IMG/VR virus record: IMGVR_UViG_3300033146_002014
Span: 1 to 41,405 of that record
DNA length: 41,405 nucleotides
Source of the DNA: a virus
Direction: 5' to 3' (one strand)
In this document: piece by piece, positions 14,697-40,037 of the stretch
Layout of the letters: the number at the start of each line of letters is the position of its first letter
Position numbering within the stretch: the first letter of the stretch is position 1
The notes under the pieces: generated by a model
Told to the model about the DNA's origin: nothing
Database searches by the model: none
What the model saw: only the letters and a program-made list of their open reading frames with translations
Program-made: the position numbers and the translations under genes

Positions 14697-15230
14697 ATGG
14701 GTGTTCTAGGTTTACCTAATAAAGAAGATATTGATAGCCCATTTTCACTTATTTATGACGAACTCAATATAGAGGATTATTTAGTTGAGCTAGAATGGGA
14801 TTTTACATTAAACCATGTAGATGGGTGGAATGAAACCTTGATTACTAAAATTAATGAAGTTTCGGGTCATGTACATCATACCACACTTAGGGGTGGTGTT
14901 GATACGATTTATATCAACGAAGGTATACTATTCGTATTCCAATCTTTAATCGGTTTTAAAGATATGACACTTTATGGTCGATATTCAATCGTAATTGACA
15001 ATACATTAAGGCCAGATACTATTATTTGTGTACAGACACCGAACCCAGCTCTTGAAGATGCTGGGTTAATCGAAGTTGTTAATAAAGTGACGATGGACGG
15101 TGATATGATGAATGAGTTTACCTTTGAAATTTGTAAGAAAGATGATATTGATGACTTAAAATTAAAAAATCTAATTAAGAATACTAAAGGAATAATTAAA
15201 ATAAAAAATTTAAGTCAATGGGTGTATTAG
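14697..15230 (+). CDS. Truncated paralogue of the major capsid protein
   Basis: A 177-residue protein. Residues 44-67 (WNETLITKINEVSGHVHHTT then LRGG) align with residues 427-450 of this phage's capsid protein (WNQTLITKVNQISAQIHKST then LRGG). The following hydrophobic strand and TLYGRY (91-96) match TLNGRY (491-496) in the capsid protein. It therefore holds only a C-terminal part of the HK97-fold capsid core and lacks the N-terminal three quarters. The first 14 residues, MGVLGLPNKEDIDS, are not capsid-like but match the start of the next gene. It is co-transcribed with the KTSC gene from a host-type promoter. It cannot be a normal capsomer; a capsid-binding regulator, decoy or decayed duplicate are options. 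Confidence 0.75.
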   Translation: MGVLGLPNKEDIDSPFSLIYDELNIEDYLVELEWDFTLNHVDGWNETLITKINEVSGHVHHTTLRGGVDTIYINEGILFVFQSLIGFKDMTLYGRYSIVIDNTLRPDTIICVQTPNPALEDAGLIEVVNKVTMDGDMMNEFTFEICKKDDIDDLKLKNLIKNTKGIIKIKNLSQWVY

Positions 15231-15670
15231 ATTTACCAAACGAAGAAGATATTAATAGTATTTGCGAATTTGGGTTATTAAAACCTTTTGGTTGGTATAT
15301 GAATTTAGGGGAAAAGTTATTTCAATCCGATAATTCAAAAACCATTTGGTTTACTGATGATAGAGAAGAGCGATATGGTATGTTAATCGTTAATAAGATG
15401 ATTAATTTAAGTTTTAATAGTGAATCTAATGAAAATGTTAAAGAAAGTGTGGTAGATTATTTAGATTTCTTTAAGGAGTTATCTAAATACGATATAGGTG
15501 TAAGTAGGGCACCTCAATTCACTTATGGTGATACAAATTTTTCTATCAACACCTTAATATTAAATAAAGATACCCTTAATGATTTTAAATTTTCATCAAT
15601 TTATATTATACATGATATAAAATTTCATTTTGATGGAGTGATTACCTTACGAGTGATACTTAAAAATTAA
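15218..15670 (+). CDS. Hypothetical protein sharing N-terminus with capsid-like gene
   Basis: A 150-residue protein starting MGVLDLPNEEDINS, almost the same peptide that starts the preceding capsid-like protein; the remainder (FGWYMNLGEKLFQSDN onward, with a beta-rich C-terminus) is unrelated to it and unknown to me. The ATG lies inside the last codons of the preceding gene (13-base overlap), so the two are translationally coupled. Confidence 0.6.
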   Translation: MGVLDLPNEEDINSICEFGLLKPFGWYMNLGEKLFQSDNSKTIWFTDDREERYGMLIVNKMINLSFNSESNENVKESVVDYLDFFKELSKYDIGVSRAPQFTYGDTNFSINTLILNKDTLNDFKFSSIYIIHDIKFHFDGVITLRVILKN

Positions 15671-15675
15671 AAAAT

Positions 15676-15846
15676 ATGTTAAATAAAGTAGATAAAGTTT
15701 ACCATGAGTTAGTCGATGATATCCTAACAAATGGTAAGAAAAAAAATGAGAAAACCAAAACCAAAGAGGTATTTATAGGGTTTTATGTGGTGGTAGAAAA
15801 ACTTGTTGTGGTTTTAAATGGGAATATTATAATAATAAATAAATAA
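15676..15846 (+). pseudogene. thyA N-terminal fragment joined to endonuclease tail
   Basis: An open frame of 56 codons. The first 25 residues (LNKVDKVYHELVDDILTNG, then KKKNEKTKTK) mirror the start of the intact thymidylate synthase next door ([19 protein letters not shown], then [10 protein letters not shown]). After that the similarity ends. In another frame the DNA at about 15768-15837 reads GIYRVLCGGRKTCCGFKWEY, which looks like the C-terminal end of NUMOD-bearing HNH homing endonucleases (pattern G-K/R-R-K-T-x2-G-F-K-W-x-Y). This looks like the scar of an older thyA copy invaded by a homing endonuclease and then mostly deleted. It is unlikely to yield a working protein. Confidence 0.6.
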
Positions 15847-15852
15847 TAAAAA

Positions 15853-17173
15853 ATGAGTAAAAATTTAAACAATGTTGATATGGTCTATCACACACTTGTT
15901 AAAGATGTGTTAGAAAATGGTACCATACGAAATGATAGGACTGGCACGGGAACTATTTCTGTTTTTGGTAGAATGATTAGGTTTAATTTAGAAGACGGTT
16001 TTCCGTTATTAACAACTAAAAAGATGTGGATACCTGGTATTATACATGAATTATTATGGTTTTTGAATGGTGATACAAATATTAAATACTTAGTAGATAA
16101 TAAAGTTCATATTTGGGATGAATGGGCCAATGAGAATGGAGACCTTGGACCAGTTTATGGTCATCAATGGGTGAATTGGCCTAACCCAATAATATTAGAC
16201 GATGGTAGTGGTGAAGGTTGGTTTGATGATGGTATTAACCAAATACAAAATGCTATTAATACTTTGAGAACTAATCCAGATTCTCGTAGAATTATGGTTA
16301 GTGCATGGAATGTTAGTGATTTATATAATATGGCGTTATTACCGTGTCATTACGCATTTCAATTTTATACAACTGAATTAACTTTAGAAGAACGAGTTAA
16401 TCTATTAAAACCTTACGGTTTTGATGCTTTGACAACTGAGGCTAGAGATAAGTTCATGAAAGAACATAATGTACCAACCCGTAAATTATCGTTAAAGTGG
16501 AACCAACGTAGCGTAAACAAAAACTGCGCCTTAATACAGTAATGTATTTCGAATAACTTACCTAAACGGGGGAACTCTAAACAAGTTAGGTTGTAGACAA
16601 TCCCGTACTAAATTTTATAATAATATGGTTATAGGACTACCTTTCAATATCGTGAATTTAAATCGTTATCTGAATGTGCTAGATACTACAATGTAAGAGT
16701 GATAATTTTCCAGAATATTATTATAAATAAATGTGTAACGACTATCCCGAAAGGGAGTACATTCAAGTGAATGGAAATGGTAAGAACCCTAAATTTGGGT
16801 TGTGATATAGTCTAATCTGTATGGAAACATACAGCAGTTCATAAGAGAACGGTATATGATTAACGACCATATACGAATATAATGGGACACAGGATTAGGT
16901 TTACCATATAATATTGCGTCATATGCATTTTTAACACATATGGTGGCACAACAAGTTAATATGGTGCCAGGTGAATTGATTGCTGATTTAGGTGATACAC
17001 ATATTTATTTAAATCATGTTGATAAACTTAAAGAACAATTAGAGAGGGATTCATATAATCTACCAAAATTAGAACTAATGAAAGCAGATGATATTTTTTC
17101 ATATAGTTTTGAAGATTTTAAAATTGTTGATTATCAATCACACCCAACAATAAAAATGGATATTTCTGTATAA
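15853..17173 (+). CDS. thyA: Thymidylate synthase, split by a group I intron
   Basis: Exon 1 is 15853-16514 and exon 2 is 16885-17173; joined they encode 316 residues in frame. The enzyme methylates dUMP to dTMP with methylene-tetrahydrofolate. Signatures present are [35 protein letters not shown], the catalytic Cys165 in [17 protein letters not shown] joined to [13 protein letters not shown] across the splice, and [11 protein letters not shown]. Reading through without splicing stops after 229 residues. An insertion of about 30 residues before the WNQRS motif accounts for the length over the 264 of E. coli ThyA. T4 td is interrupted by a related intron near the same conserved motif. A terminator follows directly. 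Confidence 0.93.
16515..16884 (+). ncRNA. Group I intron, T4 td-like
   Basis: A 370-base intron with the core of subgroup IA phage introns. The 5' splice site GCGU (16511-16514) pairs with GCGC shortly downstream, with the expected terminal U-G pair (P1). ACGGG (16566-16570) pairs with CCCGT (16602-16606). The R and S elements GACTAT (16740-16745) and ATAGTC (16807-16812) form P7. CTGTATG-GAAA-CATACAG (16817-16834) is a hairpin with a GNRA tetraloop, P9-like. The intron ends in G at 16884. The stretch around ACGGGGGAAC and GTAGACAATCCCGT is very close to my memory of the T4 td intron. No intact endonuclease gene lies inside. Confidence 0.9.
16642..16722 (+). pseudogene. Remnant of intron homing endonuclease (NUMOD1-like)
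   Basis: Within the P6-side loop, one frame reads [19 protein letters not shown], similar to the NUMOD1 helix-turn-helix (F-K-S-L-S-E-A-A) found at the end of many HNH or GIY-YIG intron endonucleases. Stops flank it and no start is present. T4 td carries I-TevI in a corresponding P6 loop, so this is plausibly what is left of such a gene. Confidence 0.5.
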
Positions 17174-20626: not shown

Positions 20627-21037
20627 ATGAAAAAATTATTTCTAATATACATAAATGTGCTAGGTGAAAATTGGCGTGGTCAAAATGTTTACGAATTTTT
20701 ATTTTCAGATACAACCGAAGATGTAGACGGTGAATTTTGGGATAAATTTCCAGCCGCTGGAAATCCAGAGCCACCACATAGTCGTTTTGTTAAATTAGTT
20801 GGTATATTAACCACTGATAAAACATTAGAAGTGTTACAAGATAGTGATACATATGCAATGTGGGATGGAATGGATGGGGTAATCTCTATAGCGTGGGAGG
20901 ATTTATCTGAATATGAAGTTTACCCAGATAAAAGATTATTTTTTAGGTTTGGTGAAGAGATTGAAGTTGTTAAAGAGAAATTATATACAACTGATAATGT
21001 ATTACAATTTAATGAAGACGATGGCAAAATTAACTAA
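20627..21037 (+). CDS. Hypothetical protein
   Basis: A 136-residue protein with alternating strands and aromatic residues (ENWRGQNVYEFLFSDTTED, FWDKFPAAGNPEPPH, then YAMWDGMDGVISIAWEDL). I do not recognise the family, but the mix looks like a folded globular protein. It begins directly after the acidic protein's stop, and its end overlaps the start of the next gene by 17 bases. Context suggests a late virion or assembly role. Confidence 0.6.
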   Translation: MKKLFLIYINVLGENWRGQNVYEFLFSDTTEDVDGEFWDKFPAAGNPEPPHSRFVKLVGILTTDKTLEVLQDSDTYAMWDGMDGVISIAWEDLSEYEVYPDKRLFFRFGEEIEVVKEKLYTTDNVLQFNEDDGKIN

Positions 21038-22715
21038 AAATAATTTATTAGTATTAAAATTATTAAAGGAGAGTGGAGAAGTATCCAACGATACTTATGA
21101 GGTACTTAAAGATATTTTTTCTAAAAACCCAGAACTTAGACAAAAACTAAGTCATGTAAACACTGATAAAGAAAGAGCTGGTTTATTAAAAGCATTTATC
21201 GATAAAATTGGTGTACCACCTAATAAATTATCTGATATTGAAAATAGTGTTAGAGATACCGCGAGTAAACATGATGACCAAAATATTGATACTTTTGATG
21301 ATTCTAATGTAGATTCATCTAATACTGATACAAGTTTCGATAAACGAGAAGATGAGAATGGTGAACCAACTAAATACCATAACACTTCCGTTGATGGTGG
21401 AAAACCTATTCATAATGAAGAGGTAAAACCAAAAATAAAAAAAAATGAGTTATTAACTATAATAGCAAAAAATAAAATGGGAACTGATAAATGGAGAAAA
21501 ATAGCTGAACGAGCTTTAGCTAAATCAAATGGTAAATCGTTAAATGAATCTAGGATTGATTATGGTGATATGGAAGAACGAATGTTACCTAAATTAGAAC
21601 GAGAATTAAGAGAAAGAAAACATTCTTTAGGTACACACCCAATATTCCCAGAAAGTGATGAAACACATTTTGAAGAAAAGATTATAAATCAAAGATTTAT
21701 CGATGTTGTAAATAGTGTTAAAAGACACTTTGATGTTAATAAAATTGATAATAATTTTTTAATACAAAATATGGGTGTTCTTGTTGGTGATTCGATGGAA
21801 ACTGAGGATGGTCACCAAAAAGAATTAGAAGATTTAGCGGTTAGAATGGTTATCGATGAATATGATATACCAGATGGTGCTATAGAATTTGATGTAAAAT
21901 TAGAACCACAAATAAATTTATTTGGTACTAAACCTAACCCAACACCAAAAACTGTTGAAACTGAATTTGAAAATCATGATGAGATTGAATTAGCGAATAA
22001 AGAAGTTTATAAGCGTAGATTCATTAACGCAATGACACAGGGTGCTGCTAAAAAGTCTACTCATATGTTTCATTTAGTCGATGATGAGTTAGCTAGAATT
22101 GACCCTCGATTACCTAATCAGTATAGTAAAATGATGTCTGCTGCTGATTATATGTATTATATTTATGATGGTAGTACAGATGCTGGTAGAGTAAACGGTG
22201 GTGTGGTACGAGTTGAGTTTCCTAAAAATGAGGGTGAGGTACCAAAAATTATTGCACGAGCAGTAGTTTTCCCAGTCTTAATACATGAGATAGTTAAAGG
22301 TGTTATGGAGATATTAGCATCACACGGTTTACCTAGAGATAGTAAAATACAAAAATGGGTTATTGGTAAAGCAGACTTTGTATCAGCTGAAGCTTGGGAT
22401 ATGAGATTGGGTCCAGGATTATGGGGTAAATTTACAGAACTAATCCCAACCGAAGATTTTAATCTAAAACATCAAATTTACATGGAATTAGTAGTGTTAC
22501 CAGTGGACGATTTCAATGTTTCTATGAGAGAAATTATGGCTGGTACTAATACTGGTAAAAAAATTATAACCGATATTATTAGTAATATTAAAACTGAGAT
22601 GGAAACTGAAGCATTTGAAGAGGCCATGAACGAAAAAAGAGAAACAGATGATGATATTGGTGGGAATCTGGGTCAAGAAGATTTAGATGATTTTAATTTA
22701 GATAATTGGATTTAG
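21021..22715 (+). CDS. Large hypothetical protein, probable virion or assembly
   Basis: A 564-residue protein from the ATG at 21021; an upstream ATG at 20913 would overlap the previous gene by 125 bases. The first 200 residues are charged and low in complexity, with Asp/Ser stretches. A folded region follows at about 270-540: NQRFIDVVNSVKRHFDV, RRFINAMTQGAAKKSTHMFH, YSKMMSAADYMYYIYDG, ARAVVFPVLIHEIVKGVMEI and KADFVSAEAWDMRLGPGLW. I know no function for it. It is followed by a strong terminator and lies just ahead of the packaging genes. Confidence 0.65.
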   Translation: MAKLTKNNLLVLKLLKESGEVSNDTYEVLKDIFSKNPELRQKLSHVNTDKERAGLLKAFIDKIGVPPNKLSDIENSVRDTASKHDDQNIDTFDDSNVDSSNTDTSFDKREDENGEPTKYHNTSVDGGKPIHNEEVKPKIKKNELLTIIAKNKMGTDKWRKIAERALAKSNGKSLNESRIDYGDMEERMLPKLERELRERKHSLGTHPIFPESDETHFEEKIINQRFIDVVNSVKRHFDVNKIDNNFLIQNMGVLVGDSMETEDGHQKELEDLAVRMVIDEYDIPDGAIEFDVKLEPQINLFGTKPNPTPKTVETEFENHDEIELANKEVYKRRFINAMTQGAAKKSTHMFHLVDDELARIDPRLPNQYSKMMSAADYMYYIYDGSTDAGRVNGGVVRVEFPKNEGEVPKIIARAVVFPVLIHEIVKGVMEILASHGLPRDSKIQKWVIGKADFVSAEAWDMRLGPGLWGKFTELIPTEDFNLKHQIYMELVVLPVDDFNVSMREIMAGTNTGKKIITDIISNIKTEMETEAFEEAMNEKRETDDDIGGNLGQEDLDDFNLDNWI

Positions 22716-22740
22716 AAAAGGTGGGATTTCCCACCTTTTT
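22716..22740 (+). terminator. Rho-independent terminator
   Basis: GGTGGG (22720-22725) pairs with CCCACC (22730-22735), extended by A/T pairs and followed by a T run. Confidence 0.9.
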
Positions 22741-22742
22741 TA

Positions 22743-22773
22743 TTGCTTTTTATTATAATATATCATATTTTTG
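22743..22773 (+). promoter_or_regulatory. Bacteroidota-type promoter
   Basis: TTG at 22743-22745, 20 bases, TATTTTTG at 22766-22773. The ATG follows 4 bases later, a nearly leaderless arrangement. It partly overlaps the end of the terminator. Confidence 0.75.
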
Positions 22774-22777
22774 TTGT

Positions 22778-23395
22778 ATGGGAATACTAAATCTTAATGA
22801 CATATCAAATGAGTATTACAATATTGGAGATTTTAATTTTTATACTAAATCATATGATTATAAATTAAGTGATACTCAGCAATCATTTATTAAATTACTC
22901 GAAAATAATTCATCGAAAATTATTTTTGTACAAAAAAGTAGACAAGTTGGGTATACGACATCAGTTAGCCTTTTTAGTTTCAATTCAATCCAAGAGAATA
23001 AAAACATTTTACATATTTCATCAACATCATTTGGTGCTAAATATGCTATTGATAAAATTAGAGGGTTAGTTACCAAATATAAACCTAGTATGTTGGCTAA
23101 TAAACGAAATTCTTTTAATTCTAAAGAAATTGTTACTAATAAATCAACATTTAAATCTATTTTTAATAGAATGGTTTTAAATGAACAATGTAAGCGATAT
23201 GATTATATTTTTATTGATGAATATTCTAGTCAATATAAAGTTGAACTAGGTCAACTTTTAGCTTATTGTTTACCATTAATAAAAGTTGATGGTACTATAG
23301 TTATTTCGAGTGATAAACAATTATATTTAGGTGAAGAAGGTACGACCCATTTTGATTTTACTGAACCACAATTTAATCGATTTGTACTAAAATAG
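22778..23395 (+). CDS. Stand-alone terminase-type ATPase domain protein
   Basis: A 205-residue protein resembling only the ATPase half of a large terminase. It has KSRQVGYTT at residues 53-61, a deviant Walker A like the KPRQAGVST of the terminase next door and the KSARVGYSK of lambda gpA, then a strand and helix (NILHISSTSFGAKYAIDKI) matching the terminase ILILANKQDMAQEFLGKI segment, and Walker B YDYIFIDE at 141-148. No nuclease domain follows. The ATG at 22778 is supported by the promoter. The N-terminus MGILNLND resembles MGVLGLPN of the capsid-like gene. It lies immediately before terL but under its own host-type promoter. Possible roles are packaging regulator, interference factor or decayed duplicate. 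Confidence 0.65.
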   Translation: MGILNLNDISNEYYNIGDFNFYTKSYDYKLSDTQQSFIKLLENNSSKIIFVQKSRQVGYTTSVSLFSFNSIQENKNILHISSTSFGAKYAIDKIRGLVTKYKPSMLANKRNSFNSKEIVTNKSTFKSIFNRMVLNEQCKRYDYIFIDEYSSQYKVELGQLLAYCLPLIKVDGTIVISSDKQLYLGEEGTTHFDFTEPQFNRFVLK

Positions 23396-23415
23396 TGGTT
23401 TAAAGAGGTTTTAGC

Positions 23416-23430
23416 ATATTTATTATAAAA
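23416..23430 (+). promoter_or_regulatory. Late-type AT motif before terminase
   Basis: ATATTTATTATAAAA, 7 bases before the terminase ATG. Confidence 0.6.
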
Positions 23431-23437
23431 AATAAAT

Positions 23438-26400
23438 ATGTTAACAAAACAACAACAATTAGAAGAATATGCTAAATGTATAATTAACCCAGCTTACGCT
23501 ATTGAAAGTTTTTTAGAAACTTTTGATAAAACACAAGAGGGTTTCGTACCATTTAAATTGTTTGAAAAACAATTAGAAATCATTGATGGTTATGAGAATC
23601 ATCGTTTTAATATTGTTGCTAAACCTAGACAAGCTGGTGTTTCGACAACCACAGCGGCTTATGCAGCTGTTAAAGTTGGTTTTGCCGACCCAGATAACCC
23701 AGAAAAAATTCTAATCTTAGCTAATAAGCAAGATATGGCCCAAGAATTTCTTGGGAAGATTAAAGATTTCCTAGCACAACTACCAAGATGGATTTGGGGT
23801 AGTGATTATTATGGTACATCAGAAAAAGAAAAGAAATCAATTTTCATTACCGATTCAAAAAAACACTTAATATTACCAAATAAATCAGAAGTTAAAGCTG
23901 TTGCGACATCTAAAGATGCTCTAAGGGGTTATACCCCAACACATCTAATAATGGATGAGGCGGCATTTATTGACGATGGTGAGATAGTATTTGGTGCGGC
24001 CCTTACATCGTTAGGTTGTTTAGTAAAAGATACATTAATATTAACTAATGATGGTTTAGTAGAATTAGATGAATTGGTCACCGAAAAAGAAAAAATAGGT
24101 TTTACTGATTTAGATACACCACATAAAGTTTGTAATATGGACGGGAATATTGTTGATGCTACCCAAACATTTGTTAGTGAATACGCAACAACCTATCGAA
24201 TTTTAACTAAAACAGGTATAGAATTAGAGGGTAGTTTTAAACACCCATTATTAGTAAACGATGAATGGGTTAAAATGGAAGAATTAAAAGTAGGGGATGA
24301 AATTAAAGTTGGTTATAATCAAAATATATTCGGTAATCACGATATTTTTGAATTCGATTATAAATTACACCCAAATGAATTCGATATTAATATCCCTAGG
24401 GATTTATCACAAAATTTAAATTTCGTCTATTTAATGGGGTTATTTGTTGCTGAGGGCAATTTCCAAAGTCGTGGTATAACAATAACTAATGTTGGTCCCG
24501 ATATTGTTAATTTTTTATTAAATGACGACGCTAATTTAGGTAAAGCTTTCACTAAGGTAGATGATAGACATTATTCATTATCGTCTACTAAATTAATTAG
24601 GTGGATGGATGCATTTGGTTTGAAAAAACATAATGCGAAAAATAAAGAAATCCCATTACCAATTTTGAAAATGTCGAAAGACGTTATTTCAGCTTTTTTA
24701 CAAGGGATGTTCGATGGTGACGGAATGTCAACATATAAAGAGATTAAATATTCCTCAACATCTAAAAAATTAATTAAACGTCTCCAAACTATTTTATTAA
24801 ATTACGGTATTAAATCACATATACATTATGTTGAGGAGGAAACTAGTGAGTCATCTATAATACCTAATAAAAGCCACGTTTGTAAATTATACAATTTATT
24901 TATCTATTCTAACCACGCGTTAAATTTTTATGATAACATAGGTTTTAGATTAAAACGAAAACAAGTTAACCGCAATAAGTTAATAAATAAAAAAGTTAAT
25001 TCAAGGTTCGTTGAAGTGACGCAACAAAGTATTTTAAAGATACTTAAAAAATATCATATCCCTAAATATAAAGTTAGGTTTTTAGATAGATTTTTTAATA
25101 GTAAGTATGCACGATTATCATATGACAGTTTGGGTAAATTAATTGATTACATTAAACACTATTATAATACGATTGACGGTGATTTAGATGAATTATTAAC
25201 CCAAAAATATTATAATGAAAATTATTTTTATGATGAAATAGTTGATATAATCGTTTCAAAAGATTATACTTACGATTTACACGTACCAGAAACACATTCA
25301 TTTATTAGTAATAGCGTTATTAGTCACAATACTGGTGGTCACGCAACACTGATTAGTTGTGTTGTTGACGATACTTTCGTTTTTACCGACAAAGGGATAA
25401 GGCAAATTAAAGATTTTATTCCAACACAAAACAACGGACCACATTTAATTGAAGAGTACCATGTTTTAGGTAAAAATAAATTACGAAGTGGTAATATATT
25501 CCATAATAATGGATTAGTTAATACTATAAAAATAAAAACCGTTAATAGTGAATTAGAAGGTAGTTACCCACATAAATTATACGCTTATTCAAACGGTAAA
25601 TATGGTTGGGTTAAAATGGAAGATTTAAAAGTTGGGGATTATGTTGCTCATCAATATGGTATGGGTATTTGGGGTAATGACGATAAGGTTAATTTTAAAT
25701 ACGAACCATCAACGAAAGAAAAAAACAGCCTTGGTGAAATAAATGAAATTACTAACGAAATGGCTTATTTTTTGGGGTTATATCTAGCAGAGGGTTCAGT
25801 TTACAAATCAATTAATAACGATGGTGACCATATTGGGACATCGATAACGTTAACGTGCTATGATGATATGACACCTGTATTTAATGGTATTGGTTTGCAA
25901 GTACAGTCATATGATAATTTACACTATACTGTTGGTTCTAAAGAGTTGGGTGCTTTTATGGAGTATTTAGGGTTTAATTTATCATTACACGCCAATGATA
26001 AAGTGATACCGAATAAATTATTAAGTCTATCAAAAGAAAAAACCAAATATTTGTTACGCGGTATATTCGATGGTGATGGTTTTAGTAGAAAAGATAAGGG
26101 TTATATTGGTATTGGATTGAGTTCCGAAAAATTAATCAAACAAATAAGGGTATTATTGAATAATTTTGGTATATTAACTGACTACTTCGTTGTGAACACA
26201 AAACCAACAAAATTAGTTAAAAGTTATTCAATGAATTATCGAATACAAACCAATGCAGTTTCAGCTAAAATATTCTACAAAGAAATTGGGTTTGGGTTTG
26301 AGAGGAAGCAAGTGAATGAACATGTCTTAAATGATAAAAAAATTGATTATTCCGACCCAAGAGATATTATACCTAATTCTAAAGAGTTAGTTAAAGAAAT

Positions 26401-27868
26401 TTATAGAGAATATAATGGGACTCAGAAACATCTAAAAGACATGGGGGTTTACATTCTACCAAATGGTAGTGGTAATAAAAGTAGGATGGGGCTTCTTAAA
26501 TTAATTGATTATGTTAAAGACGATTTAAGTGACGAGTTATTATCTAAATTAAATAAACACATTTCATATAATTTAAAATGGTGTAAAATAAAAGAAATAT
26601 CATACCACGAAAACTATACATATGATTTTTCACTACCAAATGATAATAATGATTTTTGGGCCCATTCAGTTATTTACAACGGTATTTTAGGTCATCAAAC
26701 GCCAAATGGTTATGATAAATTATATTATAAAACGTATGATGGTGCTCAAACTGGTGATAACGATTTTAATATTATTGAGATGCGTTGGTATCAAGACCCT
26801 CGTTATAATAAAGGTTTAATTTGGACTAAGGGTGATGAAACTATTACTGAAACTATATTCACAGTAGAATGGTTAGAAAAACGTAGACAAGATGGGTGGA
26901 AACCATCATCATCGTGGTATGAAGCGATGTGCCGTGGTATGAATAATGATAAACGAATGATTGCTCAAGAATTAGATGTTTCATTTGTTGGTTCTGGGGG
27001 TAATGTTATAGACGACGAATATATTATGTATCACGAAGAAAACTATGTTCAAGAACCAGAATGGATAAGTGGTAAAGATAATGAATTTTGGATATGGAAA
27101 AAGCCGATTGAGGGACATCAATATCTTTTAAGTTCTGATGTTAGTCGTGGTGATGGTGAGGATTCATCAACATTTACTATCATTGATTTCACTACAATGG
27201 AACAAGTAATGGAATATAAAGGTAAAATTCAACCAGATTTATTAGCACCATTGATTGATGAATATGCATCATTATACAACGCATATACCGTGGTTGATAT
27301 TACTGGTGGATTAGGGGTTGCAACTGTATTAAAACTATTGGAAATCGGTTTCAAGAATCTACATTATGATGACCCACGAAATAAAATATTATCTAGTAGA
27401 GCTGATTTACAAAAATTTGCCAAAGATAATGGTCGAAAAATCCCAGGATTAAATGTTAACTCAATACGATTACCAATGATTGCACTATTCGAACAATCAA
27501 TAAGAGAAAATTTAATTAAAGTTAGGTCTAAAAGATTAATATCTGAAATGAGAACATTTGTTTATCGTAGTGGTAGACCAGACCATATGGTTGGTTATCA
27601 TGATGATTTATTAATGGCAATGGCTATGGGTTTATGGGTTTTAGAACACGCATTTAAAAATTTAGAAAAATTAGAGAAACAAACAAAAGCGATGTTGAAC
27701 AGTTGGACTATGACTGGTGGAAATGTTGTTGAGGATAAAACTGAAGCCGTTTTTGTATCTAAAGATAAAAAAGTAATAAGGAGCAAACCTAAATTTCACC
27801 CAACCGTTTCTAAAAATATGCAAGACCCACGTGGGGAGTATTTATGGTTGTTTAGTGGAATGAGATAA
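23438..27868 (+). CDS. terL: Terminase large subunit (gp17-like) with two inteins
   Basis: A 1476-residue precursor. Residues 194-631 and 641-1087 are inteins, leaving a mature protein of 591 residues, close to T4 gp17 (610). It packages DNA into proheads by ATP hydrolysis and cuts the concatemer. The ATPase part has deviant Walker A KPRQAGVSTT (62-71), Walker B LIMDEAAF (D173, E174) and coupling motif LIS-TPNG, which is split by intein 2. The RNase H-like nuclease part has SSDVSRGDGEDSS, YTVVDITGG and GYHDDLLMAM, supplying the metal-binding acids. Both inteins have N-terminal Cys and Thr as the next extein residue. A late-type motif precedes it. The nine residues TGGHATLIS between the inteins belong to the enzyme. 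Confidence 0.93.
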   Translation: MLTKQQQLEEYAKCIINPAYAIESFLETFDKTQEGFVPFKLFEKQLEIIDGYENHRFNIVAKPRQAGVSTTTAAYAAVKVGFADPDNPEKILILANKQDMAQEFLGKIKDFLAQLPRWIWGSDYYGTSEKEKKSIFITDSKKHLILPNKSEVKAVATSKDALRGYTPTHLIMDEAAFIDDGEIVFGAALTSLGCLVKDTLILTNDGLVELDELVTEKEKIGFTDLDTPHKVCNMDGNIVDATQTFVSEYATTYRILTKTGIELEGSFKHPLLVNDEWVKMEELKVGDEIKVGYNQNIFGNHDIFEFDYKLHPNEFDINIPRDLSQNLNFVYLMGLFVAEGNFQSRGITITNVGPDIVNFLLNDDANLGKAFTKVDDRHYSLSSTKLIRWMDAFGLKKHNAKNKEIPLPILKMSKDVISAFLQGMFDGDGMSTYKEIKYSSTSKKLIKRLQTILLNYGIKSHIHYVEEETSESSIIPNKSHVCKLYNLFIYSNHALNFYDNIGFRLKRKQVNRNKLINKKVNSRFVEVTQQSILKILKKYHIPKYKVRFLDRFFNSKYARLSYDSLGKLIDYIKHYYNTIDGDLDELLTQKYYNENYFYDEIVDIIVSKDYTYDLHVPETHSFISNSVISHNTGGHATLISCVVDDTFVFTDKGIRQIKDFIPTQNNGPHLIEEYHVLGKNKLRSGNIFHNNGLVNTIKIKTVNSELEGSYPHKLYAYSNGKYGWVKMEDLKVGDYVAHQYGMGIWGNDDKVNFKYEPSTKEKNSLGEINEITNEMAYFLGLYLAEGSVYKSINNDGDHIGTSITLTCYDDMTPVFNGIGLQVQSYDNLHYTVGSKELGAFMEYLGFNLSLHANDKVIPNKLLSLSKEKTKYLLRGIFDGDGFSRKDKGYIGIGLSSEKLIKQIRVLLNNFGILTDYFVVNTKPTKLVKSYSMNYRIQTNAVSAKIFYKEIGFGFERKQVNEHVLNDKKIDYSDPRDIIPNSKELVKEIYREYNGTQKHLKDMGVYILPNGSGNKSRMGLLKLIDYVKDDLSDELLSKLNKHISYNLKWCKIKEISYHENYTYDFSLPNDNNDFWAHSVIYNGILGHQTPNGYDKLYYKTYDGAQTGDNDFNIIEMRWYQDPRYNKGLIWTKGDETITETIFTVEWLEKRRQDGWKPSSSWYEAMCRGMNNDKRMIAQELDVSFVGSGGNVIDDEYIMYHEENYVQEPEWISGKDNEFWIWKKPIEGHQYLLSSDVSRGDGEDSSTFTIIDFTTMEQVMEYKGKIQPDLLAPLIDEYASLYNAYTVVDITGGLGVATVLKLLEIGFKNLHYDDPRNKILSSRADLQKFAKDNGRKIPGLNVNSIRLPMIALFEQSIRENLIKVRSKRLISEMRTFVYRSGRPDHMVGYHDDLLMAMAMGLWVLEHAFKNLEKLEKQTKAMLNSWTMTGGNVVEDKTEAVFVSKDKKVIRSKPKFHPTVSKNMQDPRGEYLWLFSGMR
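24017..25330 (+). mobile_element. TerL intein 1 (LAGLIDADG type)
   Basis: 438 residues. It starts at Cys in SLG/CLVKDT, has the block B His in GSFKHPLLV, two endonuclease motifs (LMGLFVAEG and LQGMFDGDG) and ends SHN before Thr. All expected splicing residues are present. It is inserted just after the Walker B region. Its domains resemble those of intein 2 (RLKRKQVNRNK against GFERKQVNEHV). Confidence 0.93.
25358..26698 (+). mobile_element. TerL intein 2, C-terminal Gln
   Basis: 447 residues, in the coupling motif between LIS and TPNG. It starts CVVDDTFVF, with block B His in EGSYPHKLY and endonuclease motifs FLGLYLAEG and LRGIFDGDG. It ends GHQ before Thr: the usual terminal Asn is Gln. A few natural inteins with terminal Gln are known to splice. 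It is a likely sister of intein 1. Confidence 0.92.
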
Positions 27869-28178: not shown

Positions 28179-31100
28179 ATGGGAACTGATAAAAATAATG
28201 GTAAACAATTAACCGTCTTCCAAAGAATGAATAAAGTTTTTGGTCCAGAAGGTGTTAAAGTACCTCAAAATAAAACTAATCGTTATTCTTTAGGTAATAA
28301 AGAAATTCTTAGGACACAATCTAAGAGTGAATTAGAAAAAACAAAATTACAAGCACAACAAAATTTACATCTTAGTCAAACTTGGCGAAAAGTAGATGGT
28401 GAAATGTATCAACAATCGATACATTATGAAACAACTAGGATTGGTTCTTATACTGATTTTGAATCAATGGAATTTTTCCCAGAGATAGCAGCCGCATTAG
28501 ATATTATGATGGAAGAATCGACTACACCTAATGATAAAGGTGTTATTGTTAATATTCATTCATCATCTAAAAGGGTTAAACAAATATTAGAAGATTTATT
28601 TTTCCATAGATTAGAATTACATACTAATTTACCAGCATGGGCTAGGAATGTGTGCAAATATGGGGATAATTTTGTATTTTTAAATATTGATGATAAAGCT
28701 GGTATTATTGGTTGTAGACAAATGCCTAATTTTGAAATGGAAAGGCGAGATGGTGATTTACATAGTGAACTGTTATCTAAGAATAATATTGATAGTAGTG
28801 GGTCTGAATACGATAATAGAATTAAATTTAATTGGAAAACTAAGGATATAGAATTTAATTCATGGCAAATTGCGCATTTTAGATTATTAGGTGACGATAG
28901 AAAATTACCATATGGTACTTGTTTAAAAGGTGATACTAGAATTAATATCGATAATGGTGTTAAATTCATTTCTGATATAACCAAAGGTGATATGGTTTAT
29001 AGTTTTAATACTAAAACACAAGAAAAAGAATTATCACCAGTTTTAGATACGGTTAATTCTGGGAAAAAAGAATGTTTTAAAATTAGTACTAGACATAATT
29101 TTATTGATGTTACAAAAGAACATAAAGTAATGGTGTTAAACGATGACCACGAATTTATTTATAAAAATGTGGTGGATTTGAAATTGGGTGATTTATTAAT
29201 AATAAATAAAAATGAACACACAAATAAGTTAATACCGATTGATAAATCAAAACCTATTGAAAATAAAAATGGTTGGTTTAATCAAATTGATTTAATACCA
29301 TCGTTCGTTGACGAAGAATTTGCACAATTATTTGGGTTTCTAATTGGTGATGGATGGATTAATCATACAGTAAATACCGTTTCATTCGCGTTAGGTGTTG
29401 ACGAAGAGGTGAACGAATATTATATTGATTTATTAAGGCGTTATTCTGGTGGAAACCCTAGAGTTGATAATAACGGTAAACAAGTTGTTTTATCATCTAA
29501 GTTATTAACAACCATTTTAAAAAGAATGGGTTTTGGTGGTAAATCTTATGAGAAACGATTACCAGAATGGATTTTTAATACAACACCAGAAATCCAAAAA
29601 TCATTATTAGCTGGTTTAATGGATGCCGATGGTTGGTTTACTAAAGATGAATGGACAGTTGGGTTCCATATTGAATTAAACAATAATCAATTGGTTAAAG
29701 ATTTAAAAATATTATTACAGCGAATTGGTTATAAATCTGGGTCTATTAGAAGTCGACTACGTAATAAACCAATCATTGAAGGTAGGGAAATTAAAACAAT
29801 TAGAAAAAGTTATATGATAACCTTCTTTGATTCGTATCTGAAACAAATGATAAAATATGATAATAAGAATAGGTTAACTGATGACTATATATTAGAACCA
29901 ATTAATAAAATAGAATCAATTGGGTTACATGAAACTTATGATATCTACGTTGAAAATGAGAATCATAATTTCTATGCAAACAACATTATTGTTCACAATT
30001 CCTTTTTAGAAAAGGCTAGACGTATTTGGAAACAATTATTATTATCCGAAGATGCTATGCTAGTGTACCGTGTAACAAGGGCCCCAGAACGTAGAATATA
30101 TAAAGTTTATGTTGGAAATATAGATGATGCCGATGTTGAGGCTTATGTAAACAACATTGCTGATAGATTTAAACGAGCTCCAGTAATAGACCCACAAACT
30201 GGTCAAATTGATTTAAGATTCAATCAAATGGGTCAAGACCAAGATATTTTCGTCCCAGTTAGAGATGAGAATGCACAAACACCTATCGATACTTTACCTG
30301 GTGCAGCTAATCTTGACGCTATCGCAGATATAGAATATTTACAAAATAAGTTATTCACAGCTTTACGCATACCAAAACCATTTTTAGGTTTTGATAGTGC
30401 AATTGGTGATGGTAAAAATTTAGCTATTCAAGATATTAGATTTTCTAGGACTATTAATCGTATTCAACAAGCGCTTATAATGGAGTTAAATAAAATCGCC
30501 ATTATACATTTATATTTATTGGGTTTAGAAGATGATTTAGATAACTTCACATTGACATTAAATAACCCATCAACACAAGCCGAAATGTTGAAAGTTGAAC
30601 ATCTGCAAACTAAGATTAATTTATATACATCAGCGGTTGTTGATTCTGGTAATGGTTTCGCACCAATGTCTATGACAAGAGCTAAACGTGAAATATTACA
30701 TATGTCTGATGATGAAATTAAACAAGATTTATTAGAACAACGTATAGAGAAAGCTGCTGCGGCTGAATTAGCTAAAACTGCTGCAATTATTAAACATACT
30801 GGTTTCTTTGATAAAGTTGATAATATTTATGCTGACCCAGAAGCTTTAGCTAAAGCCGATGAATTAGGTGATGAAGAAAATGGTGGTGAAGGTGATGAAG
30901 ATTTAGGAATGGGTGGTGGCTCATTCGGTGGTGGTGGTGACCTAGATTTTGGCGACGAAGGTGATGAAGAAAATATCGATATTGAAGATGCTGCTAATGA
31001 TTTAGCTGATACCGAAGGTACTGAAAATAACGATGAGGATTTAGGTGATTTTGGTGAATCATTAAAGAAAACAAATAAGTTATTAAATGAAGCTAAACAT

Positions 31101-31286
31101 AAGTATAATGTTAAATTAAATCAACGTATCATTAAGCATCGCAATAATTATTTTGATAAACTAATTAAAACCGTTAACCCTAATTCTAATGTCATTGAAG
31201 AATCAATGAAATTATCTGATAAAGGTATGAAATTTAATGATGATATTAATGATATGATTTCTAGGATTGATAAAAAACTTGGCTAA
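28179..31286 (+). CDS. Portal protein (gp20-like) with one intein
   Basis: A 1035-residue precursor; removing the intein (residues 248-607) leaves 675 residues. The portal forms the dodecameric vertex through which DNA enters. The exteins contain EFFPEIAAALDIMMEESTTP, the joined PYGT-SFLEKARRIWKQL, EDAMLVYRVTRAPERRIYKV and FLGFDSAIGDGKNLAIQDI, which follow gp20 of T4-like phages. It is about 150 residues longer than T4 gp20 (524), because of an Asp/Glu/Gly-rich region with GMGGGSFGGGGD near the C-terminus and a helical tail. The start is an ATG after an A-rich leader without a Shine-Dalgarno sequence. Confidence 0.92.
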   Translation: MGTDKNNGKQLTVFQRMNKVFGPEGVKVPQNKTNRYSLGNKEILRTQSKSELEKTKLQAQQNLHLSQTWRKVDGEMYQQSIHYETTRIGSYTDFESMEFFPEIAAALDIMMEESTTPNDKGVIVNIHSSSKRVKQILEDLFFHRLELHTNLPAWARNVCKYGDNFVFLNIDDKAGIIGCRQMPNFEMERRDGDLHSELLSKNNIDSSGSEYDNRIKFNWKTKDIEFNSWQIAHFRLLGDDRKLPYGTCLKGDTRINIDNGVKFISDITKGDMVYSFNTKTQEKELSPVLDTVNSGKKECFKISTRHNFIDVTKEHKVMVLNDDHEFIYKNVVDLKLGDLLIINKNEHTNKLIPIDKSKPIENKNGWFNQIDLIPSFVDEEFAQLFGFLIGDGWINHTVNTVSFALGVDEEVNEYYIDLLRRYSGGNPRVDNNGKQVVLSSKLLTTILKRMGFGGKSYEKRLPEWIFNTTPEIQKSLLAGLMDADGWFTKDEWTVGFHIELNNNQLVKDLKILLQRIGYKSGSIRSRLRNKPIIEGREIKTIRKSYMITFFDSYLKQMIKYDNKNRLTDDYILEPINKIESIGLHETYDIYVENENHNFYANNIIVHNSFLEKARRIWKQLLLSEDAMLVYRVTRAPERRIYKVYVGNIDDADVEAYVNNIADRFKRAPVIDPQTGQIDLRFNQMGQDQDIFVPVRDENAQTPIDTLPGAANLDAIADIEYLQNKLFTALRIPKPFLGFDSAIGDGKNLAIQDIRFSRTINRIQQALIMELNKIAIIHLYLLGLEDDLDNFTLTLNNPSTQAEMLKVEHLQTKINLYTSAVVDSGNGFAPMSMTRAKREILHMSDDEIKQDLLEQRIEKAAAAELAKTAAIIKHTGFFDKVDNIYADPEALAKADELGDEENGGEGDEDLGMGGGSFGGGGDLDFGDEGDEENIDIEDAANDLADTEGTENNDEDLGDFGESLKKTNKLLNEAKHKYNVKLNQRIIKHRNNYFDKLIKTVNPNSNVIEESMKLSDKGMKFNDDINDMISRIDKKLG
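28920..29999 (+). mobile_element. Portal intein (LAGLIDADG type)
   Basis: 360 residues, from Cys in YGT/CLKGDT to VHN before Ser. Block B is VTKEHKVMVL; endonuclease motifs are LFGFLIGDG and LAGLMDADG. All splicing residues are canonical. Confidence 0.95.
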
Positions 31287-32662: not shown

Positions 32663-34399
32663 ATGGATGATTTAAAAATATTGAAACCAGGTGAATTCGG
32701 TACCAAGGGATATTTAATTGAATATGACGCTGGTTATATCGACCCAAAAGATAAACGTAATCTAGCGTTTGTTAATGAGGTCGCTAAAATTGAAAGAAAA
32801 GAAACGGTAATCGCTGAACCCTTAGTTGTAACAGTAGTTTTACAAAAATATGGTGTTGAAAACGCTAATGGTAGGATATACCCAGAACCAATTTTAAGAA
32901 GAGAAGCTGATTTATACCAAACGTTAATACAAGAGGTAAGAGCTGTTGGTGAGTGTGTTACAAAGGAAACTGAAGTTTATACAATTAATGGGTGGGTTCC
33001 AGCTAATAATGTTAAAGTTGGTGATGAAATTTACACATTAAATTTGGAAACGAATCAAATACAAATACAACAAATCACGCATTTAAGTGATACGATTTAT
33101 AATGATGAACTAATACACATATATAATAAATCATCGTTAGACATGGTTGTAACTAAAAACCATAAAATTGTTTTATGGGATAGGAATAATAACCCTTATG
33201 TTTTAAGAGCCGATGAATTATATGATAAAATTAAAAATAATGATTCAAAAGTAAACCATTCATATATAAAGCGTGGTGGTGATTGGATAGGTGAGGATAA
33301 AGAGACTATTGAAATCTCTGGTTATGAAATACCAATGGAAGACTGGGTTGCTTTTATGGGTATTTATTTATCTGATGGTCATTCTACTGGTACGAAAGGT
33401 GGTAAACAAACAAATTCAGTTATTATAACACAAGTTAAAGAAATTTCATCTAAAAAAATCGTTGAATTATTAGACCGTTTACCATTTGATTACACTTTGT
33501 CTAATAACAGACAATATATAATAAACGATAAGGATTTACATGATTTGTTGTATCAATTAGGTAATTCATACACTAAATATATACCAGATTATATTAAAAA
33601 TTTATCGCAAAAATATTTAAACATTTTAATAGAATGGTTGTTATTGGGTGATGGTTGGAATAGACATGATAGTAAAGGTGTAACGTTGCGCGAATATTAT
33701 ACAACATCACGTCAATTAGCTGATGATGTCAATGAGGTGTTTTTAAAATTAGGTAAAGGTGGTAGTATACACACTCGAACACCTAAAGATAGGTTGATTG
33801 AAGGTCGATTAATTTTAAGTGAAAATTCTAAAACATTATATGTTGTTAGTGAACATAAAACAAAGGGTGTTTATTTAGATAGTAGATTTACTAAAGTTGA
33901 AAAAATAAAATACAATAACCATGTATATGGTATTACTGTTGATAATGGTACTTGGTTGATGCGATATAACAACAAAATAAGTTGGACACATAATAGTGAC
34001 CATCCAGAAAGTTCAATAATATCCGTTGAGAGAATATCCCATAATATTACAAAGATTTGGTGGGAAGGTGCAACTCTAATGGGTGAAATGGAAATTTTGA
34101 TGTCACCAGGTTTTATTAATTATGGTATAATTTCTTGCCAAGGTGACCAAATCGCAAATTTATTACGAAAAGGTATTAGAATCGGTGTTTCTTCAAGAGG
34201 CGTTGGTTCATTAGAAGAAATAGATGGTAAGAACATTGTTCAAGACGATTTTGAAATAATCGGTTGGGATATTGTAGTTTCTCCATCAACACCTGGGTCA
34301 TGGATGTTCAAAAATAGAGAAGAAGCACAACCTTTTGTTGAAAATAAGATAAAAAATAAGAATTTATTGGTTGATAAACTGAACAATTTCTTATTATAA
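32663..34399 (+). CDS. Prohead core protease (gp21-like) with one intein
   Basis: A 578-residue precursor; removing the intein (residues 98-444) leaves 231 residues, close to T4 gp21 (212). It is the serine protease that matures the prohead by cutting core and capsid proteins. Visible are ENANGRIYPEPIL near the N-terminus, the catalytic His in the joined VGE-SDHPESSII, and the nucleophile Ser in IGVSSRGVGSL, which follow the herpes-type prohead protease pattern. The intein interrupts the gene two residues before the His, so the unspliced protein should be inactive. It lies between the core-like genes and the scaffold as in T4. Confidence 0.9.
   Translation: MDDLKILKPGEFGTKGYLIEYDAGYIDPKDKRNLAFVNEVAKIERKETVIAEPLVVTVVLQKYGVENANGRIYPEPILRREADLYQTLIQEVRAVGECVTKETEVYTINGWVPANNVKVGDEIYTLNLETNQIQIQQITHLSDTIYNDELIHIYNKSSLDMVVTKNHKIVLWDRNNNPYVLRADELYDKIKNNDSKVNHSYIKRGGDWIGEDKETIEISGYEIPMEDWVAFMGIYLSDGHSTGTKGGKQTNSVIITQVKEISSKKIVELLDRLPFDYTLSNNRQYIINDKDLHDLLYQLGNSYTKYIPDYIKNLSQKYLNILIEWLLLGDGWNRHDSKGVTLREYYTTSRQLADDVNEVFLKLGKGGSIHTRTPKDRLIEGRLILSENSKTLYVVSEHKTKGVYLDSRFTKVEKIKYNNHVYGITVDNGTWLMRYNNKISWTHNSDHPESSIISVERISHNITKIWWEGATLMGEMEILMSPGFINYGIISCQGDQIANLLRKGIRIGVSSRGVGSLEEIDGKNIVQDDFEIIGWDIVVSPSTPGSWMFKNREEAQPFVENKIKNKNLLVDKLNNFLL
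32954..33994 (+). mobile_element. Protease intein (LAGLIDADG type)
   Basis: 347 residues, from Cys in VGE/CVTKET to THN before Ser. Block B is VTKNHKIVLW; endonuclease motifs are FMGIYLSDG and LIEWLLLGDG. All splicing residues are canonical. Confidence 0.94.
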
Positions 34400-39091: not shown

Positions 39092-39426
39092 ATATCTTCT
39101 AATGTTATATTAGGTAAAATATTAAAAAACTCATCAATCACCAATGCTTCATAAACTGTTGCTGGTTCATGATAATAATCTTCATCATAATCTTCAAATT
39201 CTGCTAACCCTACTAATTGTTCTTCTAATTCACAATTCTCACGAATTAGTTCACTTTTACTATCTTCCAAATCACTAACCTCTTCTTCTAACGTTGTAAT
39301 TTCCGATGCTAATCCAATTAATTTGTACTCAAGGTCACCAACCTTTTCTTCTAAATCATTAACTTCTTTTTCGAGTATAGTTATTTTTTCTAATAATGAT
39401 TGAATATCTTCTCGTTCTTCTTCCAT
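39073..39426 (-). CDS. Coiled-coil hypothetical protein
   Basis: A 117-residue protein. About residues 5-75 are nearly pure heptad coiled coil (LEKEVNDLEEKVGDLEYKL, then LEEEVSDLEDSKSEL); the C-terminal 40 residues look globular (TVYEALVIDEFFNILPNI). It overlaps the upstream ATPase gene by 37 bases and the downstream coiled-coil gene by 19 bases, a tightly coupled trio. Confidence 0.62.
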   Translation of the reverse strand: MEEEREDIQSLLEKITILEKEVNDLEEKVGDLEYKLIGLASEITTLEEEVSDLEDSKSELIRENCELEEQLVGLAEFEDYDEDYYHEPATVYEALVIDEFFNILPNITLEDICKLKN

Positions 39427-40037
39427 TGCTCTTTAATTTTTATATTACATGGGTTAGTTGTGAAAGTACACAAAAATTGCTTTTCACAACCATATCTATT
39501 TTTTATTATCCCAATACTCATTCTATTACGTATTGGTGCTAAATATTCATCATCACTTATTTTATTAATATTAAATATTAAATGTGATGATTGTGTTAAA
39601 TATGTATTTGAATTATATGTAGTTATAATAACGCTTAATGTAGAATTCATAATTACAATTCTATGTAAATGCGCTAACGTATCATTATTATATCTTACCA
39701 TATCAACATCAATTATGATGGATAAATTTGAAAAATCGGCTTGACTATAAAAACTAAGTGTGCGGATAACATCTTCAAAAGTAGTTACATTCATAACAAC
39801 TAAATAATTATTCGTATTTAAATGATTTTTAGAACGATTTATTTCACTGGTGAATAAAAGTACTCTATTATCATTCCTTGTTAGCTCATTTACTAAATTA
39901 TAAACAAAGAGAGATTTACCACTAGCAGCACCACCCATAACAGTTGTTAAACCATACGGGATATAATTATAAAAATAATCTTTTTTATAATTTAATTCAC
40001 CAATTTCAAAATTATCTGGTACACTTAATACTGACAT
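39390..40037 (-). CDS. RecA/DnaB-fold P-loop ATPase
   Basis: A 215-residue protein with Walker A GGAASGKS (35-42) in the strand-loop-helix context of RecA/DnaB-type ATPases (IPYGLTTVMGGAASGKSLFV), a following strand RVLLFTSEI, a Walker B-like SNLSIIIDVDMV and a late GIIKNRYG resembling the C-terminal strand and loop of DnaB-type helicases. It lacks the N-terminal domain of replicative helicases, so it is a minimal ATPase. The N-terminus MSVLSVPDNFEI resembles the shared starting peptide of three other genes here. It overlaps a coiled-coil gene downstream and follows the ATP-grasp gene by two bases. Function unknown. Confidence 0.75.
   Translation of the reverse strand: MSVLSVPDNFEIGELNYKKDYFYNYIPYGLTTVMGGAASGKSLFVYNLVNELTRNDNRVLLFTSEINRSKNHLNTNNYLVVMNVTTFEDVIRTLSFYSQADFSNLSIIIDVDMVRYNNDTLAHLHRIVIMNSTLSVIITTYNSNTYLTQSSHLIFNINKISDDEYLAPIRNRMSIGIIKNRYGCEKQFLCTFTTNPCNIKIKEQWKKNEKIFNHY

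Follow-up and report, generated by a model that had tools for sequence, protein, structure and literature searches.

The open reading frame directly ahead of terL in a T4-like phage very probably encodes a stand-alone paralogue of the ATPase domain of the large terminase subunit (TerL), which ends just past motif III and, as an accessory gene, occupies an insertion site. Judged by its sequence, this product, P0001, is TerL-ATPase-like and not a TerL. Its phage represents the third lineage in which a short TerL lies beside the complete one, the others being the Rak2-like and phiM12-like phages, and a TerL ATPase without a nuclease beside a real terL is now recorded in three separate T4-like lineages. 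The arrangement was already known from the Rak2-like jumbo phages and from the Sinorhizobium phages phiM12 and phiN3.

The gene and its insertion site

The window, i.e., the whole 41,405-base virus record that was analysed, belongs to a T4-like phage with a terL, a T4-type portal and a T4-type major capsid protein (MCP), and relatives are present in IMG/VR, with MCP identities of 58-83%. The P0001 reading frame occupies exactly 22778-23395 (+) and starts with ATG. Its codon use is like that of the other phage genes (+0.20 bits/codon in frame), with the alternative frames of the locus scoring -0.26 and -0.16 bits/codon on the forward strand and between -0.33 and +0.07 on the reverse. The locus is made up of the following elements.

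21030-22715 (+): upstream conserved gene UP600, the left border of the insertion site, syntenic in ~50 relatives (start approximate)
22713-22742 (+): intrinsic terminator of the upstream gene, overlapping its stop codon, with a 13-pair stem and a T tract
22743-22773 (+): host-type promoter-like site TTG-N20-TATTTTTG, directly after the terminator, of an enriched class
22778-23395 (+): P0001, a very probable stand-alone TerL ATPase-domain paralogue of 205 aa, by codon use, TerL HMM, motifs and predicted structure
23415-23437 (+): late-type motif CATATTTATTATAAAA before terL, of an enriched class and conserved in relatives
23438-27868 (+): terL, with full ATPase and nuclease and two inteins (PHROG 2, E 2.4e-34; Intein_splicing, E 3.1e-18)

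The insertion site lies between the terminator of the upstream gene and the late promoter of terL, a position that holds no gene in ~50 relatives. The gap between UP600 and terL measures 12-147 bp in the relatives, usually with a terminator and a late motif, and 722 bases here. Across 12 kb, two intrinsic terminators were detected, of which this is one, and most relatives have a terminator hairpin at this place. terL, which is intact but for its two inteins, is separated from P0001 by 42 bp. Unrelated cargo has also entered the site, namely a 344-aa gene in locus L022 (814-1848), a small gene in L005 and a 190-aa gene in L138 and L139 (L138:3267-3839), and this terminator/late-promoter site before terL is a cargo hotspot.

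A stand-alone TerL ATPase, matched by the TerL ATPase profile, is found at the same site in two IMG/VR contigs, L124 (247 aa, E 6e-22) and L143 (217 aa, E 5e-24). A tree of 38 TerLs places the three carriers (the window, L124 and L143) in a single clade, with support of 92/91 and recovery in 94% of the bootstrap trees. Within this clade the TerLs are 66-70% identical and the short proteins 31% or less, as would suit a single gain and fast divergence afterwards. The short proteins of L124 and L143 match each other (E 8e-15) and P0001 has no BLAST match to either, so that its orthology with them rests on the position, the clade and the common TerL-ATPase profile. A scan with all three short proteins recovered, besides L124 and L143, only true TerLs. 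A 553-aa gene, probably of endonuclease type, with DUF723 and DUF4379 treble-clef matches, lies beside the short TerL ATPase of L143 (L143:2137-3798 (-)).

Motifs, profiles and predicted structure

The first-pass annotation had described a terminase-like ATPase with a Walker A (KSRQVGYTT) and a Walker B (FIDE) that stops before the nuclease. Both motifs are present and the protein does end before that domain, and its reading as a terminase-like ATPase was borne out by the profile, the motif order, the structure comparison and the synteny. The motifs of P0001 are the following.

22877-22879 (+): Q34, the adenine-binding (Q) motif, invariant in a 33-sequence TerL alignment
22934-22960 (+): KSRQVGYTT (aa 53-61), a deviant Walker A with a shifted Lys, K53, and an Arg, R55, aligning with KPRQAGVST in the TerL of the phage
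23210-23221 (+): FIDE (aa 145-148), Walker B and catalytic Glu (D147, E148), by profile and alignment
23303-23311 (+): ISS (aa 176-178), motif III (coupling motif), aligning with IST of TerL

Q34 and motif III, which stands in the context DGTIVISS, are additional to the motifs named before, and with them the TerL ATPase order is kept throughout (Q34, K53SRQVGYTT, FIDE, ISS). All five invariant columns of the 33-sequence TerL alignment are found in P0001, the lysine of its Walker A is in front and the arginine in the loop, as in its own TerL, and the ILHISSTSFGAKYAIDKIRGL stretch between Walker A and FIDE aligns with ILILANKQDMAQEFLGKIKDFL of that TerL. The two proteins are 22% identical, and the RG pair that precedes Walker B in most of the aligned TerLs is missing from P0001. 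Its C-terminus lies ~27 aa past motif III, so that both the lid subdomain and the RNase H nuclease are absent. A search of all of IMG/VR for K-[S/T]-R-Q-[V/I]-G-Y-T-T gave two further stretches, both in bona fide terminases.

P0001 was matched with 24.3 bits (E 2.3e-6) by a diverse HMM of TerL ATPases from which the sequences picked for their likeness to it (L094 and L095) had been left out; the best of 2000 composition shuffles reached 9.7. The first diverse HMM, which included L094 and L095, picked by their P-loop, had given E 5e-8, and an HMM also without the lambda/Mu-like members gave 19.1 bits (E 8.8e-5). Significance was reached only with the diverse TerL set: a narrow profile of close relatives only gave a non-significant 4.9 bits, with some shuffles higher, and in the profile-profile comparison with this narrow profile P was 0.0025, one of 200 shuffles scoring higher. 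Among the 38,880 PHROG families searched, PHROG 5989, “terminase large subunit”, is the only terminase family that matches P0001, and does so weakly (E 0.0029); the Rak2-like and the phiM12-like short copies both belong to it (GAP32_268, E 6e-81; PHIN3_97, E 3e-76). The similarity to terminases is remote, given that single-sequence searches of Pfam and the PDB gave no significant terminase match. Relatives were found neither by tblastn in phages and plasmids, nor in 20 related phage records, nor by scanning IMG/VR and the GTDB genomes with sequence patterns, a kind of scan that reaches close relatives only, and an Rfam search gave no match.

The AlphaFold model, for which P0001 was aligned with TerL domains of related loci, has a pLDDT of 70.6 and a pTM of 0.70, and its best superpositions are terminases, i.e., 8dgc_E from PhiV-1 (Z 13.6), T4 gp17 (2o0j, Z 13.1) and 3cpe (Z 13.0). 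The comparison with the gp17 ATPase, which had been suggested as a check on the initial reading, gives a superposition in the model, and this terminase match is partly circular because TerLs were in the model's alignment; a single-sequence model had a pLDDT of 34. The predicted structure favours the terminase identity, without proving it.

The terminase superpositions stand only 1-2 Z above those of DEAD-box and reverse-gyrase domains (Z 11-12), and Pfam UvrD gives E 0.037 (14.2 bits, below the cut-off of 23), as might be seen if P0001 belonged to another P-loop family, such as an SF2 or UvrD-like helicase, with a convergent likeness to terminases. The RQ Walker A, the TerL profile, the superpositions and the proximity to terL all favour a terminase. 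The first-pass annotation had named a closer fit to some unrelated P-loop family as contrary to its reading, and this was not seen, UvrD remaining below its cut-off. We consider an origin in another P-loop family very improbable.

There is next to no probability that P0001 is one half of a split TerL, left by a split intein or a broken gene. Campylobacter phage F365 offers a precedent, with a 238-aa N-terminal TerL piece that ends in an intein start, but no intein end is present in P0001, and the ATPase motifs of the adjacent terL are complete, which contradicts a split. In the F365 “large terminase” (L113:3793-4509 (-)), the intein starts right after Walker B (FIDE-CVAGDTKI), and the piece would seem to be the N-terminal half of a TerL with a split intein; its gene is present in 40 Campylobacter phage records. 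In the window, TerL (23438-27868) contains two inteins, of which one lies directly within motif III, and single inteins are found in the portal and in the likely prohead protease (28179-31286, 32663-34399).

Promoter patterns

The site TTG-N20-TATTTTTG ends 4 bases before the start codon of P0001, and the transcript is possibly leaderless. This site fits the Bacteroidota consensus, TTG-N17-23-TAnnTTTG, and the class TTG-N20-TAnnTTTG presumably points to a Bacteroidota host. The motif CATATTTAT at 23415 precedes terL. In the 70 bases upstream of the 43 window genes, the host-type pattern TTG-N19-21-TAnnTTTG was seen 7 times versus 0.17 expected (at most 2 in any of 300 simulations). For the late-type pattern, [C/T]ATATTTAT, 6 occurrences stand against 0.47 expected (at most 3 in any simulation). 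The first-pass assignment of a host-type promoter to P0001 and of a late motif to terL holds as far as sequence patterns go, with both classes above chance.

The two promoter classes are thus real patterns, with P0001 and terL in different ones, and the class of P0001 predicts expression apart from that of terL. Separate timing, which the first-pass annotation had thought probable, is not general to the short-TerL arrangement, given that the short copy abuts or overlaps terL in the Rak2-like and Sinorhizobium phages, and that the candidate orthologue in L124 has a late-like motif in place of the host-type one.

Short TerL copies in other lineages

A short TerL ATPase (~230 aa) lies directly upstream of the complete terL in phages GAP32 of Cronobacter, CBB of Pectobacterium, XbC2 of Xanthomonas, Kaldavass and SNUABM_12 of Erwinia, and BF of Serratia, and the same arrangement is present in the Sinorhizobium phages phiM12 and phiN3 (~195 aa). 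The paper on CBB reported a truncated large terminase, which was called unusual, and named phiM12 and phiN3 too (PMC5259590); no paper giving a function to the short copies was found in a literature search. P0001 falls within the ATPase-only range of ~190-250 aa, ends soon after motif III, and likewise lies directly upstream of a complete terL.

In the Rak2-like and Sinorhizobium lineages, the short copies are less similar to one another than the TerLs are, with identities of 41% vs 87% between GAP32 and BF, 57% vs 97% between GAP32 and CBB, and 82% vs 99% between phiM12 and phiN3. The dN/dS of the short genes is 0.15-0.29, which is 4-7 times that of TerL (0.03-0.045), and the short copies of these two lineages are constrained, but loosely, being under purifying selection and evolving faster than TerL. 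Their dS is also raised (0.48 vs 0.10 for phiM12/phiN3 and 1.46 vs 0.55 for GAP32/CBB), which may reflect allele exchange. The Rak2-like copies have DD or DS where DE is expected and lack the Walker A lysine, whereas the phiM12 copies keep both. In an ATPase-domain tree, the short copies fall outside their own TerL clades, with P0001, L143 and one TerL on long branches, and AU tests, subject to these long branches, rejected neither a common origin of all the short copies nor a grouping of P0001 with the local TerLs (p 0.27-0.28).

A functionless decaying duplicate, or a gene fragment, would be short, as P0001 is, and could have come to share just 22% of its residues with its own TerL and to lack the RG before Walker B. 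Against such decay are the open frame, the phage-like codon use, the retained catalytic residues and the promoter of its own, as well as the dN/dS of the paralogues elsewhere and the tree of ATPase domains, which places P0001, without significant support, outside the clade of its own TerL. The short copies as a whole are hard to dismiss as broken duplicates, given that they occur in three lineages, that purifying selection is combined with fast change in two of these, and that the Glu has been lost in one; for P0001 we hold decay to be improbable.

Possible roles

A gene that most relatives can dispense with, that lacks the nuclease and has lost the catalytic Glu in one lineage, and is yet selected beside terL, probably works through its TerL-like surface. 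The roles considered rank as a packaging accessory, then a decoy for TerL sensors, then the blocking of rival phages. We tentatively favour, at somewhat less than even probability, the first of these, in which P0001 is a non-motor mimic of TerL that modulates the phage's own motor, and it is rated highest because the link to terL recurs. P0001 would not translocate DNA; it would dock where the ATPase domain of TerL docks, whether on the portal, on the small terminase or on TerL, and from there would modulate how the phage's own packaging motor is assembled or used. Since K53, R55, D147, E148 and motif III are kept, P0001 may at least bind ATP and may also hydrolyse it. The homology, the motif set, the missing nuclease, the position, the promoter classes and the restriction to one clade are observed, whereas the binding partner, the effect and the timing are what we infer for this mechanism. 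It is not a needed part of the motor, since ~50 relatives package DNA without a P0001-type gene. The much faster evolution relative to TerL fits a role in conflict as well as, or better than, that of an accessory, and the promoter class of P0001, with the separate expression that it predicts, also counts against an accessory.

The second role, which is possible though on balance unlikely, is that of an immunity decoy, in which a nuclease-less TerL ATPase, made before or with TerL, would occupy a TerL sensor (Avs, STAND) without triggering it. Avs1-4 recognise TerL and the portal (PMC12931631), TerL being the mark of infection to which Avs systems bind. A decoy accounts best for the fast evolution seen as the raised dN/dS of the short copies in the two other lineages; the loss of the catalytic Glu from the Rak2-like copies would mean that shape, not catalysis, is kept, and the occurrence at the cargo site is patchy. 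The top superposition, 8dgc_E, is a TerL seen bound to Avs3, but other terminase structures score like it, so that this match reflects the TerL fold only. Moreover, a literature search found no published decoys of such a kind, and the ATPase domain of TerL might itself trigger the sensor. Were the decoy true, the conservation of shape and the fast change would both be explained, and a new class of counter-defence would be added.

Other genes of the same phage bear on the decoy, beginning with the N-terminus of P0001.

22778-22807 (+): N-terminus MGILNLNDIS of P0001, resembling the start of three other proteins of the phage

The start M[G/S][V/I]LxL/V[P/N], a motif chosen after being seen, is found in 4 of the 43 window genes (14697, 15218 and 22778 (+); 40037 (-)) versus 1 of 1399 ORFs in related loci, and a scan of IMG/VR with the pattern gave only chance matches inside another protein. 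This common start could be a localisation or interaction tag. The gene at 14697-15230 (+) encodes 177 aa, of which aa 43-86 match the phage's own MCP (46% over 41 aa). The HMM match has E 1.2e-8 and 30.8 bits, compared with 5.6 bits for the best shuffle, and the product may be read as a truncated mimic of the capsid protein. Major capsid proteins are a kind of protein sensed by other defences, and several truncated self-mimics in one phage could be decoys. In a wider form, which we regard as rather doubtful, P0001 and the MCP piece of the 14697 protein, in accessory clusters and with a common N-terminal start, would be decoy antigens that sequester Avs-like sensors, and the Rak2-like and phiM12-like copies would act likewise.

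The gene at 39390-40037 (-) encodes a 215-aa P-loop protein with the same start motif and GAASGKS, weakly like ATPases of the RecA/KaiC/DnaB type; relatives of this protein and of the 14697 protein were searched for and none were found. At 15664-16542, a ThyA reading frame (229 aa) is apparently cut short, and a separate ORF immediately upstream repeats its first 38 residues with 45% identity.

The third role, which the first-pass annotation had put forward beside a regulation of packaging, is that of a weapon between phages, in which an early, dominant-negative TerL ATPase would poison the packaging ring of a co-infecting phage. The host-type promoter, the ATPase-only form and the accessory-gene position are all in keeping with it, and Tab, a prophage moron beside terminase genes, blocks the virion assembly of other phages (PMC10884400). 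On the other hand, the phage's own motor would be threatened too, unless the poison were specific, and the short gene of the Rak2-like and Sinorhizobium phages lies next to terL or overlaps it, in keeping with a late role. We judge this weapon to be unlikely, and return to the packaging accessory as the preferred role.

Comparison with known systems

The fold and motif order of the ATPase domain of T4 gp17 and PhiV-1 TerL are common to the P0001 model, but P0001, unlike these proteins, lacks the end of lid subdomain II and the nuclease, and is encoded by a separate gene beside a full TerL. L124 and L143 resemble P0001 in the site between UP600 and terL, in the TerL clade and in the ATPase-only form, and differ from it in having SE or TE in Walker B, where P0001 has DE, and in that no exact host-type promoter was seen.

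The Rak2-like copies (CBB_274, GAP32_268 and BF_0272) are similar to P0001 in having the ATPase fold only, in lying directly upstream of a complete terL and in evolving fast. They overlap or abut terL and begin at the TerL N-terminus. P0001 has a host-type promoter of its own, and it keeps the Walker A Lys and the catalytic Glu that these copies lack. The gp17.2 of phiM12 and phiN3, with no similarity to the P0001 sequence by tblastn or BLAST, lies between terS and terL in overlapping frames and has a classical ATGKTT Walker A, unlike P0001, but, like it, is ATPase-only, ends at motif III, lies upstream of a complete gp17, and keeps the active-site residues.
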